Below, one piece after another: positions 41,500-45,283 of a DNA stretch of 64,000 nt (the stretch's first letter is position 1; every line of letters starts with the position of its first letter). The notes below the pieces were generated by a model. The model saw only the letters and a list, made by a program, of their open reading frames with translations, had not been told where the DNA came from and searched no databases. A program made the position numbers and the translations under genes. Origin of the DNA: Christiangramia echinicola DSM 19838 (lineage in GTDB: Bacteria > Bacteroidota > Bacteroidia > Flavobacteriales > Flavobacteriaceae); the NCBI RefSeq assembly GCF_000423065.1, contig NZ_AUHG01000010.1:868001-932000 (forward strand), in the 5' to 3' direction.

Positions 41500-42219
41500 A
41501 TGAAACCTAAGAAAAATCCGAAGGCTGACCTTCGTCGGAGATGGGTCCTCTTTCTTCAAATCGGACTCATACTTGTACTATTTTTAACTCTTCAGGCTTT
41601 CCAGTGGAAAACCTATGATACAAAATCTGCAGAAACAGATATTATTAGTATGAATGAAATGACCGAGGAGGTTCCCCCGGTAACTATCGTTCCACAGAAA
41701 ACACCTCCACCACCTCCAAAGATTATAACCGATATTATTGATGAGGTGCCAGATGACAAAGATATTATTGAAGATCCAGTTGTTCCTACCGATCTCGATC
41801 TTAAGGATATTCCAGAGCCAGACGAAATAGAGGAACCTGAAGATCCGGAAGAACCTGTAGATATTCCAATAGATTTCATAGAAGAAGTGCCGATATTTCC
41901 CGGTTGCGAAAGTTTGAGCAAGAACGCCGAACGGAAAAAATGCATGAGTGATAAGATCAGTAATTTCGTAAATAGGGAATTTAATACAGATTTAGGGGCA
42001 GAGCTTGGCCTCACTGGTACGAATCTTGTGACAGTAATGTTTATAGTGAATGAGAAAGGTCTTGTCGAAGAAATCCAGACAAGAGCTCCGCATCCAGAAC
42101 TGGAAAAGGAGGCCCGCAGAGTGATAGGAAAATTACCAGAAATGAAGCCGGGACGTCAACAGGGAAAACCAGTTCCTGTTTCCTATATTATACCTATAAG
42201 GTTTAAAGTTCAGGAGTGA
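41500..42219 (+). CDS. Energy transducer TonB family protein (first paralogue)
   Basis: A 239-residue TonB-like protein. A short cytoplasmic start (MKPKKNPKADLRRRW) is followed by a membrane helix (about 15-34), a Pro-rich stretch (TPPPPPK) and a Pro/Glu/Asp-rich spacer to about residue 125. The C-terminal TonB domain has the paired motifs PIFPGCE and KKCMSDKI and ends in PIRFKVQE. The two cysteines probably form a disulfide in the periplasm. No exbB/exbD is nearby. It is followed by a close paralogue. Confidence 0.88.
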   Translation: MKPKKNPKADLRRRWVLFLQIGLILVLFLTLQAFQWKTYDTKSAETDIISMNEMTEEVPPVTIVPQKTPPPPPKIITDIIDEVPDDKDIIEDPVVPTDLDLKDIPEPDEIEEPEDPEEPVDIPIDFIEEVPIFPGCESLSKNAERKKCMSDKISNFVNREFNTDLGAELGLTGTNLVTVMFIVNEKGLVEEIQTRAPHPELEKEARRVIGKLPEMKPGRQQGKPVPVSYIIPIRFKVQE

Positions 42220-42274
42220 TAATGAGTAGTTTATAAAAATACCGTAGTTTTAATTACTTATTATCCCAGATAAA

Positions 42275-42305
42275 TTTAGTTTTTTAGAAAAAATCTTTAT
42301 TTTAG
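42275..42305 (+). promoter_or_regulatory. Weak candidate promoter of the second tonB
   Basis: TTTA (42275-42278), 19 bases, TATTTTAG (42298-42305): one mismatch in each element, but ideal spacing. Confidence 0.35.
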
Positions 42306-42329
42306 CAACCCTTAACAATATAACGCATT

Positions 42330-43052
42330 ATGGAACCTAAGAAAAATCCGAAGGCTAATTTGAACAGAAACAGAACTTTGTTTCTTCAACTTGGTCTTGT
42401 AGTAGTTCTATTTATAACCTGGAGGGCGATTGAGTGGAAAACTTATGACCCTGATAATATAGATATAGGACAGGTAAATATGGACGCACTTGATGAAGAG
42501 GATGTGCCAATTACTGAAATGCAGAATACGCCACCTCCACCTCCACCACCGCCACCGGCACCGGAAATTATCGAGGTTGTGGAAGATGAGGAAGAAGTTG
42601 AAGAAGACGAAATTCAGTCTACAGAAACTAATCTTGATGAGATCGTAGAAGTGGAAGAAGTTGTTGAGGCTCCGGTAGAGGAGGAAGTTGAAGATGTTCC
42701 GTTTGCGGTTATTGAAGATGTGCCAATTTTTCCAGGATGTGAAAATTTAGGTAACAACGATCAGCGTAAAAAGTGTATGAGTGAAAAGATCTCTAAGTAT
42801 GTGAACAAAGAGTTTGATACAGATCTTGGAGCTGAGCTTGGACTAAGCGGTATCAACCGTGTGATCGTTCAGTTTAGAATTGATGAAAAAGGTAATATTG
42901 GTCAGGTAAGAGCTCGTGCTCCACACCCAAGACTTGAGCAGGAAGCTGCAAGAGTGATCAACAGTCTGCCTAAAATGAAACCAGGTAAACAACGTGGTAA
43001 GCCAGTAGGGGTTATGTATTCTCTTCCTATTGCATTTAAAGTTCAGGACTAA
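42330..43052 (+). CDS. Energy transducer TonB family protein (second paralogue)
   Basis: A 240-residue TonB-like protein, clearly a duplicate of the preceding gene. The first 20 bases or so of coding sequence are almost identical (PKKNPKA). The membrane helix, proline run (TPPPPPPPPPAPE), acidic Glu/Val-rich spacer and C-terminal domain with PIFPGCE and KKCMSEKI occur in the same order. It likely couples the inner-membrane proton gradient to an outer-membrane partner. A strong terminator follows it. Confidence 0.88.
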   Translation: MEPKKNPKANLNRNRTLFLQLGLVVVLFITWRAIEWKTYDPDNIDIGQVNMDALDEEDVPITEMQNTPPPPPPPPPAPEIIEVVEDEEEVEEDEIQSTETNLDEIVEVEEVVEAPVEEEVEDVPFAVIEDVPIFPGCENLGNNDQRKKCMSEKISKYVNKEFDTDLGAELGLSGINRVIVQFRIDEKGNIGQVRARAPHPRLEQEAARVINSLPKMKPGKQRGKPVGVMYSLPIAFKVQD

Positions 43053-43074
43053 GAAATTACTTTCGAAGATATTT

Positions 43075-43102
43075 AATCCCGGCCATTCGCCGGGATTTTT
43101 TA
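43075..43102 (+). terminator. Intrinsic terminator after the second tonB
   Basis: AATCCCGGC (43075-43083), loop CATTC, GCCGGGATT (43089-43097), then T residues. A perfect 9-bp stem. Confidence 0.9.
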
Positions 43103-43168
43103 TTTTATGTAAATTCACTTTTATAAAAACTGTATATTACACCCATAAACCATAGGCCCCTTTAGCGT

Positions 43169-45283
43169 ATGAAGTATATTTTACTTCTTCCAATTTTATT
43201 TTTAAGTTTTCAGATCACCGCGCAGGATACTAATCTTTCTTCTGAAGTTTATCCTGAATTTCCCGAATGTGAGAATGTAGATTTTCAGAACCAGCAACAA
43301 TGCTTTAATCAAACTCTCGTTACTTATGTCACTTCTAATTTCCAGGTTCCTGATGTTGTAAAGGAAGAAAATTATAAAGGTCAGCTAACCATAATTTTTG
43401 AAGTAGATGAAGAAGGAAAATTCCAGTTGATCTATCTGGATGCTGCGTATGAAGAATTAAAGGATGAAACCAAAAGGGTGTTTGAGTCACTTCCAGGCAT
43501 TAAACCAGCCAGATATAATGGGCGTTCGGTGCATATGCAGTTTAAAATGCCGCTAAGGATACCGCTTCAGAATAACGCTGCGATACAGCCAATTCCAGAG
43601 GAAGATGAGATTGCTTTAAAGGTTGAGGATTCAAAGCCTTCTAAGGATGAAAACATTTTATCTGAATATGAAAATATAAAATCTAACGAAATTACCAGTC
43701 CCAGATATAATAGTGAGATTAATATCCCATTATCGCATGAGGTTTATAGCAGGTTTGATGCAGAATTCAATCAGATTGGTACAAATACGCATTCAGCTTC
43801 AAAACCTTTATTATTCAGTGAAGTGAATAGGTATTATGACTTTGAAGCGCACAGAGATGAAATGCTACAGGATCGTTCAACTTATGCGGGTAGAAAACTT
43901 TGGAATGAACATTTGGTTAGATTCCAGACAGATAAATACTGGTTTACTTTAGATCCAGGTTTTGACCTGCAGATAGGGAAAGACTTTGAACAAACTTCTC
44001 ATGATTTCACTTATAATAATGGGAGGCAGTTTATAGTTCAGGGTGGTCTGGGTAAAAAATTTAATTTCTACTCTGTAGTATATGAAACTCAGGGAAGATT
44101 TGCTGAATATTATAATAGGTTCGCTGAATCTATAAAACCTGCCGGTGGCGATCCTGCTATAATTCCGGGGCGCGGAGTAGCTAAAACCTTTATGGACGAC
44201 GGTTATGATTATCCTGTAGCTGAAGGATATTTGTCATTTACTCCTGCCGAATTTATTAATATCCAGTTTGGTCATGGTAAAAATTTTATCGGTGATGGAT
44301 ATAGATCATTATTGTTAAGTGACAATGCCTCTCCTTATCCATATTTAAAACTGAATACCAATTTCTGGAAAATTAAATATACCAACACCTGGATGTCCTT
44401 GCGAGACGTTCGGCCCCAGGTTGTAAATAGTGGGTCTTACAGAACAAAGTATATAGCTAATCACTATTTGAGTCTTAATGTGACCAAAAGACTGAATTTA
44501 GGATTTTTTGAATCTGTGATGTGGGAGAATGATAATGACCGTGGTTTTGATATTAATTATCTGAATCCGGTTATTTTTTACCGGGCCATAGAATTCGCAA
44601 CCGGGGCAGATGGAGGTAATGCAATTATAGGACTAACCGGAAAATATAAATTTTCGAACCAGATGTATGCCTATGGTCAGTGGCTGATAGATGAGTTTTC
44701 TTCGGTAGATGTTTTTGGCGGAGAAGGGAGTTGGAAGAATAAACTGGGATTCCAGGCGGGGTTAAAATATTTTGATGCTTTTAAAGTAGATAATCTCTAT
44801 TTGCAAGCTGAATATAACCAGGTAAGGCCATATACTTTTTCTCATAATTCAATAACACTAAATTACGGTCATAACAATCAATCTATGTCGCACCTGTGGG
44901 GAGCGAATTTTAGAGAATTTATAGCTATCGCCAGATATAAAAAAGATAGGATGTATGGCTCTGCAAAACTGATATTTGGAGAAAGAGGCTTCGATTTTTC
45001 TGAAACAGGAGAATATTACGGTCAGGATATTTATAGAAATGAAGAAGATCGTCCATTTGATACCGGAGTGCAGATTGGGCAGGGAAATACCACGAATTCC
45101 TTTTATTCGGAATTTGAAGCCGGGTATATTGTGAATCCAACTACTAATCTAAAGCTTTTTGCCAGCTTTATTTATCGCGATTTTAATCCGCAAACTAAAA
45201 CCCTGACAAACTTTGAAAATTCAACTACATGGATCAATTTTGGTCTAAGAACAGATATCTTTAACTGGTACTTTGATTATTAA
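43169..45283 (+). CDS. remB: RemB-like gliding motility outer-membrane protein with an N-terminal TonB-C-like domain
   Basis: A 704-residue exported protein with a signal peptide ending ITAQ. Residues about 28-135 resemble the C-terminal domain of the two preceding TonB proteins: EFPECE, then QQCFNQ, LPGIKPARYNG, and MPLRIPLQ at the end. After a charged linker, residues about 185-704 are a beta-rich barrel-like region (FGHGKNFIGDGYRSLLLSD, and a final FGLRTDIFNWYFDY). The barrel part and the location a few genes after sprA match the RemB protein described for Flavobacterium johnsoniae gliding. The name rests on recall and context, not on a search. Confidence 0.72.
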   Translation: MKYILLLPILFLSFQITAQDTNLSSEVYPEFPECENVDFQNQQQCFNQTLVTYVTSNFQVPDVVKEENYKGQLTIIFEVDEEGKFQLIYLDAAYEELKDETKRVFESLPGIKPARYNGRSVHMQFKMPLRIPLQNNAAIQPIPEEDEIALKVEDSKPSKDENILSEYENIKSNEITSPRYNSEINIPLSHEVYSRFDAEFNQIGTNTHSASKPLLFSEVNRYYDFEAHRDEMLQDRSTYAGRKLWNEHLVRFQTDKYWFTLDPGFDLQIGKDFEQTSHDFTYNNGRQFIVQGGLGKKFNFYSVVYETQGRFAEYYNRFAESIKPAGGDPAIIPGRGVAKTFMDDGYDYPVAEGYLSFTPAEFINIQFGHGKNFIGDGYRSLLLSDNASPYPYLKLNTNFWKIKYTNTWMSLRDVRPQVVNSGSYRTKYIANHYLSLNVTKRLNLGFFESVMWENDNDRGFDINYLNPVIFYRAIEFATGADGGNAIIGLTGKYKFSNQMYAYGQWLIDEFSSVDVFGGEGSWKNKLGFQAGLKYFDAFKVDNLYLQAEYNQVRPYTFSHNSITLNYGHNNQSMSHLWGANFREFIAIARYKKDRMYGSAKLIFGERGFDFSETGEYYGQDIYRNEEDRPFDTGVQIGQGNTTNSFYSEFEAGYIVNPTTNLKLFASFIYRDFNPQTKTLTNFENSTTWINFGLRTDIFNWYFDY

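Follow-up and report, generated by a model that had tools for sequence, protein, structure and literature searches.

A TonB C-terminal-type domain ahead of a predicted Wzi-type barrel in RemB of Christiangramia echinicola and its relatives

Introduction

Why should a protein of the outer membrane carry the domain that ends the inner-membrane protein TonB? The question is raised by a locus of Christiangramia echinicola DSM 19838 (Flavobacteriaceae), lying in a stretch of 64,000 nucleotides (contig NZ_AUHG01000010.1, positions 868,001 to 932,000; hereafter the window), in which three forward-strand genes of the open reading frame (ORF) list encode two TonB paralogues and a RemB-like protein of 704 residues. 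A preliminary description, made from the sequence, had placed these ORFs where we find them, all on that strand (Table 1), and had read in them one shared domain, anchored to the inner membrane in the first two proteins and set between a signal peptide and an outer-membrane barrel in the third, perhaps for pairing or domain swapping with the TonBs. The third gene stands at the RemB position, being the fifth gene after sprA in the window, and we take it to be remB.

Results and discussion

The N-terminal domain of RemB

The shared domain is real. In BLASTP, residues 26-135 of RemB match TonB2 (28% identity over 113 columns, E 6e-10) and residues 73-134 match TonB1 (35% over 62 columns, E 3e-10), the two TonBs being 52% identical to each other, and residues 22-140 of RemB, modelled in isolation with AF2, fold as a TonB C-terminal domain (local confidence, pLDDT, 92.9; predicted template modelling score, pTM, 0.84). 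The top Foldseek match of this model is 6i97_D, a complex of FoxA with a C-terminal piece of TonB (E 7.3e-4), while the best VIA match has Z 8.6 and a root-mean-square deviation of 2.2 Å over 87 residues, and rows 1-23 of that search are, judged by their titles, all C-terminal domains of TonB, of the TonB homologue FusB or of TolA. On this model the N-terminal domain of RemB almost certainly has the TonB-C fold. Sequence searches of the PDB gave little: the best E-value was 0.22 for RemB and 0.075 for TonB2, our RemB alignment (A1, 51 members) was likewise unproductive, and a profile of the domain found only weak TonB matches (E 0.68 and 0.77), with unrelated chains listed above them.

A profile match to the TonB C-terminal family (TonB_C, PF03544) had been suggested as a check, and it came out divided. 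The copy in the window stays below the Pfam cut-off of 24.6 bits (14.9 bits with the whole protein, 18.4 with its first 157 residues), but four of the eight surveyed genomes with a domain-bearing RemB exceed it (G277, 35.2; G086, 31.8; G159, 25.9; G281, 24.8 bits); in the other four, the window's included, TonB_C is absent from the RemB matches at E <= 0.001. Within A1, 27 of the 51 members match TonB_C at E <= 1, and the domain is present in 31. The motif proposed for the domain survives as to its two cysteines, C34 and C45 both being kept in all 31 domain-bearing rows, but the closing motif, given as P-h-h-Q (h, hydrophobic), reads P-h-x-h-x-h-Q (PIRFKVQ or PLRIPLQ).

RemB resembles TonB in the fold of this domain and in its homology to the neighbouring TonBs, yet it is no TonB protein: its translation opens with a signal peptide ending in ..TAQ, and the domain is N-terminal. 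TonB is anchored in the inner membrane, as suggested for TonB1 by its membrane segment and proline-rich linker, whereas the RemB copy lies behind a signal peptide near the N-terminus of an outer-membrane protein. The placement of the domain before a barrel, already seen in the preliminary description, is borne out by the model of the whole protein and by the structural match of the domain.

The barrel

The model of whole RemB (pLDDT 89.0, pTM 0.74, with a low-confidence linker stretch at residues 146-162) has 18 strands of at least eight residues by our count from DSSP, and its first Foldseek match is Wzi, 2ynk (E 6.5e-13). With residues 182-696, VIA aligns 2ynk at Z 26.5 and 3.2 Å over 374 residues, the next match being AlgE at Z 18.5. 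A link in sequence runs through a distant homologue, L068, which is 28% identical to the window barrel over 522 columns (E 3e-41) and matches Pfam Caps_assemb_Wzi (PF14052) with 53.5 bits against a cut-off of 30.1; of the ten distant barrels scanned for this family, two more pass (36.1 and 30.3 bits) and two fall short (28.1 and 19.2). Taken as predicted fold and transitive homology, these results indicate that the barrel of RemB is very probably of the Wzi type, a point that the preliminary description did not contain.

Wzi of Escherichia coli, a lectin for the K30 group 1 capsule, forms a barrel of 18 strands, the first of which follows a periplasmic bundle of helices (PMC3791409), and is by far the best structural match to RemB, with which it shares the barrel and the N-terminal helices. 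In Wzi, the first ordered residue comes directly after the signal peptide, and the helices precede strand 1; in RemB, a TonB-C-type domain and a linker are added at that point. The signalling domain of FpvA and FecA is likewise periplasmic, stands before an outer-membrane barrel and touches the TonB box (PMC11658791), but these barrels are TonB-dependent transporters, whereas RemB has no Pfam match to their Plug or receptor domains at E <= 1. Elsewhere in the genome of the window there is a separate, ordinary Wzi-family gene (G000 contig 2, 31.2 bits).

Distribution and conservation of the domain

In a survey of 149 Flavobacteriaceae genomes, one per genus, RemB (called at E <= 1e-40) was found in 99 genera, 98 of which carry the domain: in 97 it lies within a single match, and in G442 the gene is in two contig pieces, one of them starting at residue 33. 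The sole exception is G450, whose match starts at residue 176, possibly by retention of the ancestral state or by loss; this domain-less barrel (contig 12; L241, L246) lies about 23 kb from sprA, outside the sprA locus. A closer genome set agrees, as 31 of its 36 family genomes match from residue 1-9 to the end (five have no match), while 12 of 23 genomes of other families match only from residue 177-243 onward. The domain is also present in all 80 named loci, the best 80 of 582, which lean to Flavobacterium (79 in frames of more than 600 residues, L180 in one of 545).

None of the barrels from 26 genomes outside the Flavobacteriaceae (L055-L060, L064-L072, L090-L100) contained the domain when searched for it, the remaining outside matches being judged by frame length only, and the 20 outside-family rows of A1 have a gap there, save three stray residues in L098. 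That RemB orthologues carry the domain thus holds inside the family and fails outside it. Because the domain is near-universal within the family and absent from the outside barrels read, the comparison shows that it entered the protein early in the history of the Flavobacteriaceae, in an ancestor of most of the family, where it came to stand behind the signal peptide and ahead of the periplasmic helical plug. A local accident, which by the preliminary description a general lack of the domain in orthologues would have meant, is rejected by the same 98 of 99 genera, and such near-universality suggests a docking arm.

Across 23 genomes from the genus of the window, the domain averages 65% identity, the linker 42% and the barrel 85%, and the median ratios of nonsynonymous to synonymous rates (dN/dS) are 0.134, 0.507 and 0.020, respectively.

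Outside the family the barrels are often found among polysaccharide genes. In 10 of 11 loci from the same order (L090-L099), the gene directly upstream of the barrel falls in a polysaccharide-synthesis or glycosyltransferase BLAST group; three such groups are represented, named after a scanned Polysacc_synt_2, glycosyltransferase 4 or glycosyltransferase 1 member, and these labels are rough, as the groups were formed by single linkage. The eleventh locus (L100) has a hexapeptide transferase there, and Wzy, a flippase, epimerases and a sulfotransferase lie around the same-order barrels. At class and phylum level (L061-L069), two of nine loci have a gene of the glycosyltransferase 2 group directly upstream.

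A proposed passive dock on a polysaccharide-anchoring barrel

We propose, with a probability of roughly 0.5, that RemB is a polysaccharide-anchoring barrel with a passive dock in the periplasm, the architecture being the one described above and the partner one that we infer. From its sequence and by analogy with the orientation of Wzi, the domain would lie on the periplasmic side, a placement that these arguments support, and in the model a flexible linker, about 45 residues long, joins it to the rest of the protein. Because it has no membrane anchor, it would not itself be energised by ExbB/ExbD. An edge strand of the domain may take up a strand of its partner, as TonB does on the TonB box, or the domain may touch peptidoglycan, and a Wzi-type barrel holding surface polysaccharide would in this way be docked to a partner on the periplasmic side or in the outer membrane. 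Passive docking is favored because a receptor's TonB-box strand is captured by the C-terminal domain of TonB through strand addition, and the TonB-box strand of FpvA joins that protein's signalling domain in a sheet (PMC11658791). A role of RemB in holding surface polysaccharide seems rather probable, while strand-type docking by its domain, argued from TonB and FpvA, is more tentative, with a chance somewhat below even.

The proposal draws on the predicted folds of domain and barrel, the sequence link through L068, the polysaccharide context outside the family, the low dN/dS of the domain and its conservation in the family genera. Several observations weigh against it. The docking partner is conjectural, and sugar binding is a prediction. 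Five of the ten distant barrels scanned for PF14052 gave no match, the window barrel taken alone matches no Pfam family at E <= 0.01, and hhalign of A1 against ten ordinary flavobacterial Wzi proteins (A4) gave a probability of 14.8%; because of the last two results we write Wzi-type and not Wzi. RemB is missing from 50 of the 149 family genera at the threshold of the survey while GldB is present in 146, and for this reason RemB is not a core gliding part. GldB, being nearly universal, is of no use as a gliding correlate of RemB. The dN/dS values come from synonymous sites near saturation, dS being below 1.5 in only 16 (domain), 49 (linker) and 8 (barrel) of 253 pairs. The barrel also evolves very slowly, which one would not expect of a lectin exposed to variable sugars and which could instead reflect a conserved protein partner.

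The first alternative is that the domain is a peptidoglycan anchor holding the Wzi-type barrel to the cell wall. TonB C-terminal domains bind peptidoglycan, and the RemB domain lacks a membrane anchor and is expected in the periplasm. Peptidoglycan binding has been shown for ExbD as well (PMC11658791). No feature of sequence or fold that we examined favors peptidoglycan over peptide binding, however, and we regard the anchor as rather unlikely.

The domain could also bind the TonB box of a neighboring TonB-dependent transporter and compete with TonB for it, much as the FpvA signalling domain covers the box of its own protein. Among solved structures, the best match to the RemB domain is a TonB domain in complex with a receptor, and the sheet that FpvA forms with a TonB-box strand offers a precedent (PMC11658791), but no transporter gene was recognized in the conserved locus, the partner is hypothetical, and we consider the alternative unlikely.

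Relation to the adjacent TonBs

Pairing or domain swapping of RemB, across the periplasm, with the two TonBs encoded next to it would carry force driven by the proton motive force (pmf) to the barrel; this reading has in its favor that the genes are adjacent on one strand in the window and that all three domains are homologous. Three sets of observations speak against it. The first is a terminator-like hairpin in the gap between tonB and remB. Of 34 loci in which tonB immediately precedes remB, 32 have such a hairpin, where mononucleotide shuffles give 0.0 expected; the window's genus supplies 23 of the 34 loci, and 9 of the 11 from elsewhere have it. The rule for the hairpin was fixed after preliminary looks at the gap, a first fold-based look having been untidy, and under this rule L032 and L033 have no terminator. 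In the window the hairpin is a strong one, and its stem varies among relatives with pairing kept. Scans for consensus promoters gave no more matches than chance. The hairpins support, from sequence, a remB that is probably transcribed apart from tonB.

The second set is that of loci without tonB. Both sprA and gcvH lie upstream in 74 of the 80 named loci, and in 64 of these 74 no tonB was found before remB (deoC is present in 59 of the 64), yet the domain is kept; these loci are mostly from Flavobacterium, and a few loss events may explain them. The third is the reverse case: of 11 genomes without remB, picked by us from the 50, 10 keep tonB after vanZ, followed directly by cyoE in six and by one unidentified ORF on the opposite strand and then cyoE in four, while the eleventh (G361, L257) has neither gcvH nor tonB beside sprA. 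For these reasons, the intervening hairpin, the tonB-less loci with the domain and the remB-less genomes with tonB, an obligate pair is disfavored, a requirement for the neighboring TonBs as partners is not supported, and the pairing put forward in the preliminary description now looks improbable. Pairing with other TonBs encoded elsewhere in the genome is possible.

Distinct from the passive dock is also an arm holding on to a periplasmic component that moves with the gliding or type IX machinery, or to an energised partner, and passing pmf-driven motion on to the cell's own surface polysaccharide; we hold this role of force acceptor to be very improbable. A relic without present function, to which the sub-threshold Pfam score of the window copy and the greater variability of the domain compared with the barrel might point, is the most improbable of all, given a domain kept in nearly every RemB-bearing family genus, with both cysteines invariant and a median dN/dS of 0.134.

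Origin of the domain

A recent duplication of the adjacent tonB looks an unlikely source of the domain, as a clade of 35 rows, mostly TonBs of the family (support 100/99), excludes RemB. For the number of its rows, however, the tree was built on few columns, and its branches are long; it took 89 of the 209 domain stretches found, after removal of frames truncated at the end of a locus and of copies that were identical or at least 72% alike. On it the RemB domains need two changes rather than one and form a single clade in 44% of 200 bootstrap trees; such a clade is not rejected by the approximately unbiased (AU) test (p 0.341).

RemB in other flavobacteria

In Table 6 of PMC4891872, sprA and RemB of Flavobacterium johnsoniae are Fjoh_1653 and Fjoh_1657. 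This distance of four locus numbers agrees with sprA-gcvH-vanZ-deoC-remB, the gene order in many of the named loci from Flavobacterium. The same table gives Gramella echinicola tags 04685 (sprA) and 04710 (remB), which run in steps of five and therefore fit the gene order of the window. The identity of RemB rests on position in the locus, the F. johnsoniae sequence not being among the best 80 of 582 loci, where other Flavobacterium orthologues were. RemB is entered in that table as adhesin-like and as cargo of type IX secretion, whereas the window RemB looks like an outer-membrane barrel and has no sorting-domain match: it matched no NCBIfam family at E <= 0.1 and no Pfam family besides TonB_C at E <= 1. 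RemB and SprA are also named together beside a genomic island (PMC5714932). Our search of the open-access literature, covering titles and the openings of abstracts, met no account of the fold of RemB or of a TonB-type domain in it, though one may be in print elsewhere. Sorting-domain models are included in both the NCBIfam and the Pfam libraries.

If the Wzi-type barrel and TonB-type arm are as proposed, the adhesin-like RemB would instead be a factor for surface polysaccharide that has its docking domain in the periplasm, gliding motility would be linked to polysaccharide retention, and the gripping domain of TonB would be in use on the outer-membrane side of the periplasm.

Features of the locus and its surroundings

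Table 1. Features of the tonB-remB region, in positions of the window
Feature	Position	Strand	Evidence or remark
TonB1, inner-membrane TonB paralogue with C-terminal TonB_C-type domain	41500..42219	+	239 aa ORF; TonB_C 39.3 bits
TonB2, second TonB paralogue	42330..43052	+	240 aa ORF; TonB_C 41.5 bits
Terminator-like hairpin, then T-run, between tonB2 and remB	43075..43097	+	
Gene at the RemB position, 704 aa: signal peptide, TonB-C-type domain, linker, predicted Wzi-type plug and barrel	43169..45283	+	
Signal peptide, residues 1-19, ending ..TAQ, without lipobox cysteine	43169..43225	+	Sequence reading; Q19 invariant in A1
TonB-C-type domain, predicted periplasmic, residues 27-136	43247..43576	+	BLASTP, model, structure searches
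Cys34, first invariant cysteine	43268..43270	+	31/31 domain-bearing A1 rows
Cys45, second invariant cysteine	43301..43303	+	31/31 domain-bearing A1 rows; putative disulfide
Variable linker, residues 137-181	43577..43711	+	Residues 146-162 pLDDT < 50; dN/dS about 0.5
Predicted Wzi-type N-terminal helices and 18-stranded outer-membrane barrel, residues 182-704	43712..45280	+	Model, structure and sequence comparison

Upstream of the tonB pair lie the genes for VanZ, gcvH and SprA/Sov (NCBIfam TIGR04189, 2811 bits), and downstream of remB are cyoE and cytochrome-oxidase genes, the latter two named from sequence with no family scan behind the names. The usual place of remB in the Flavobacteriaceae is after a sprA-gcvH-vanZ-(tonB) block and ahead of cyoE; some loci have deoC or a hexapeptide transferase before remB, and for some a downstream cyoE was not found. 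Outside the family, the barrel comes directly before cyoE and oxidase genes in L092, L096 and L099, as in the window. Two public contigs of metagenome-assembled genomes, named Bifidobacterium breve (L208) and Sphingobacterium thalpophilum (L214), carry a flavobacterial RemB locus, and their names look wrong.

The TonB_C module is reused in the Flavobacteriaceae, as it occurs on other proteins too, among them M56/BlaR1 proteins, VIT-vWA proteins and small secreted proteins. These carriers share with RemB a domain found outside plain transducers, but no barrel family was matched in L073, L258, L259, L260 or L262. In L258, L259 and L260 (G281, G029) it is part of a VIT/vWA protein of 1087 residues and of two large proteins without a further Pfam family at E <= 0.01. 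Tandem domains of the TonB-C type occur in large proteins, two in L073 and L074 and three in L078; L073 is an M56 peptidase with a short match to the TonB-receptor Plug and a penicillinase-repressor gene upstream. In L075, L076, L077 and L079 the proteins are small, in frames of 127-165 residues, and consist of little beyond a start segment and one TonB-C-type domain; they form tandem pairs in L075, L077 and L079, and the copy in L076 adjoins thymidylate synthase.

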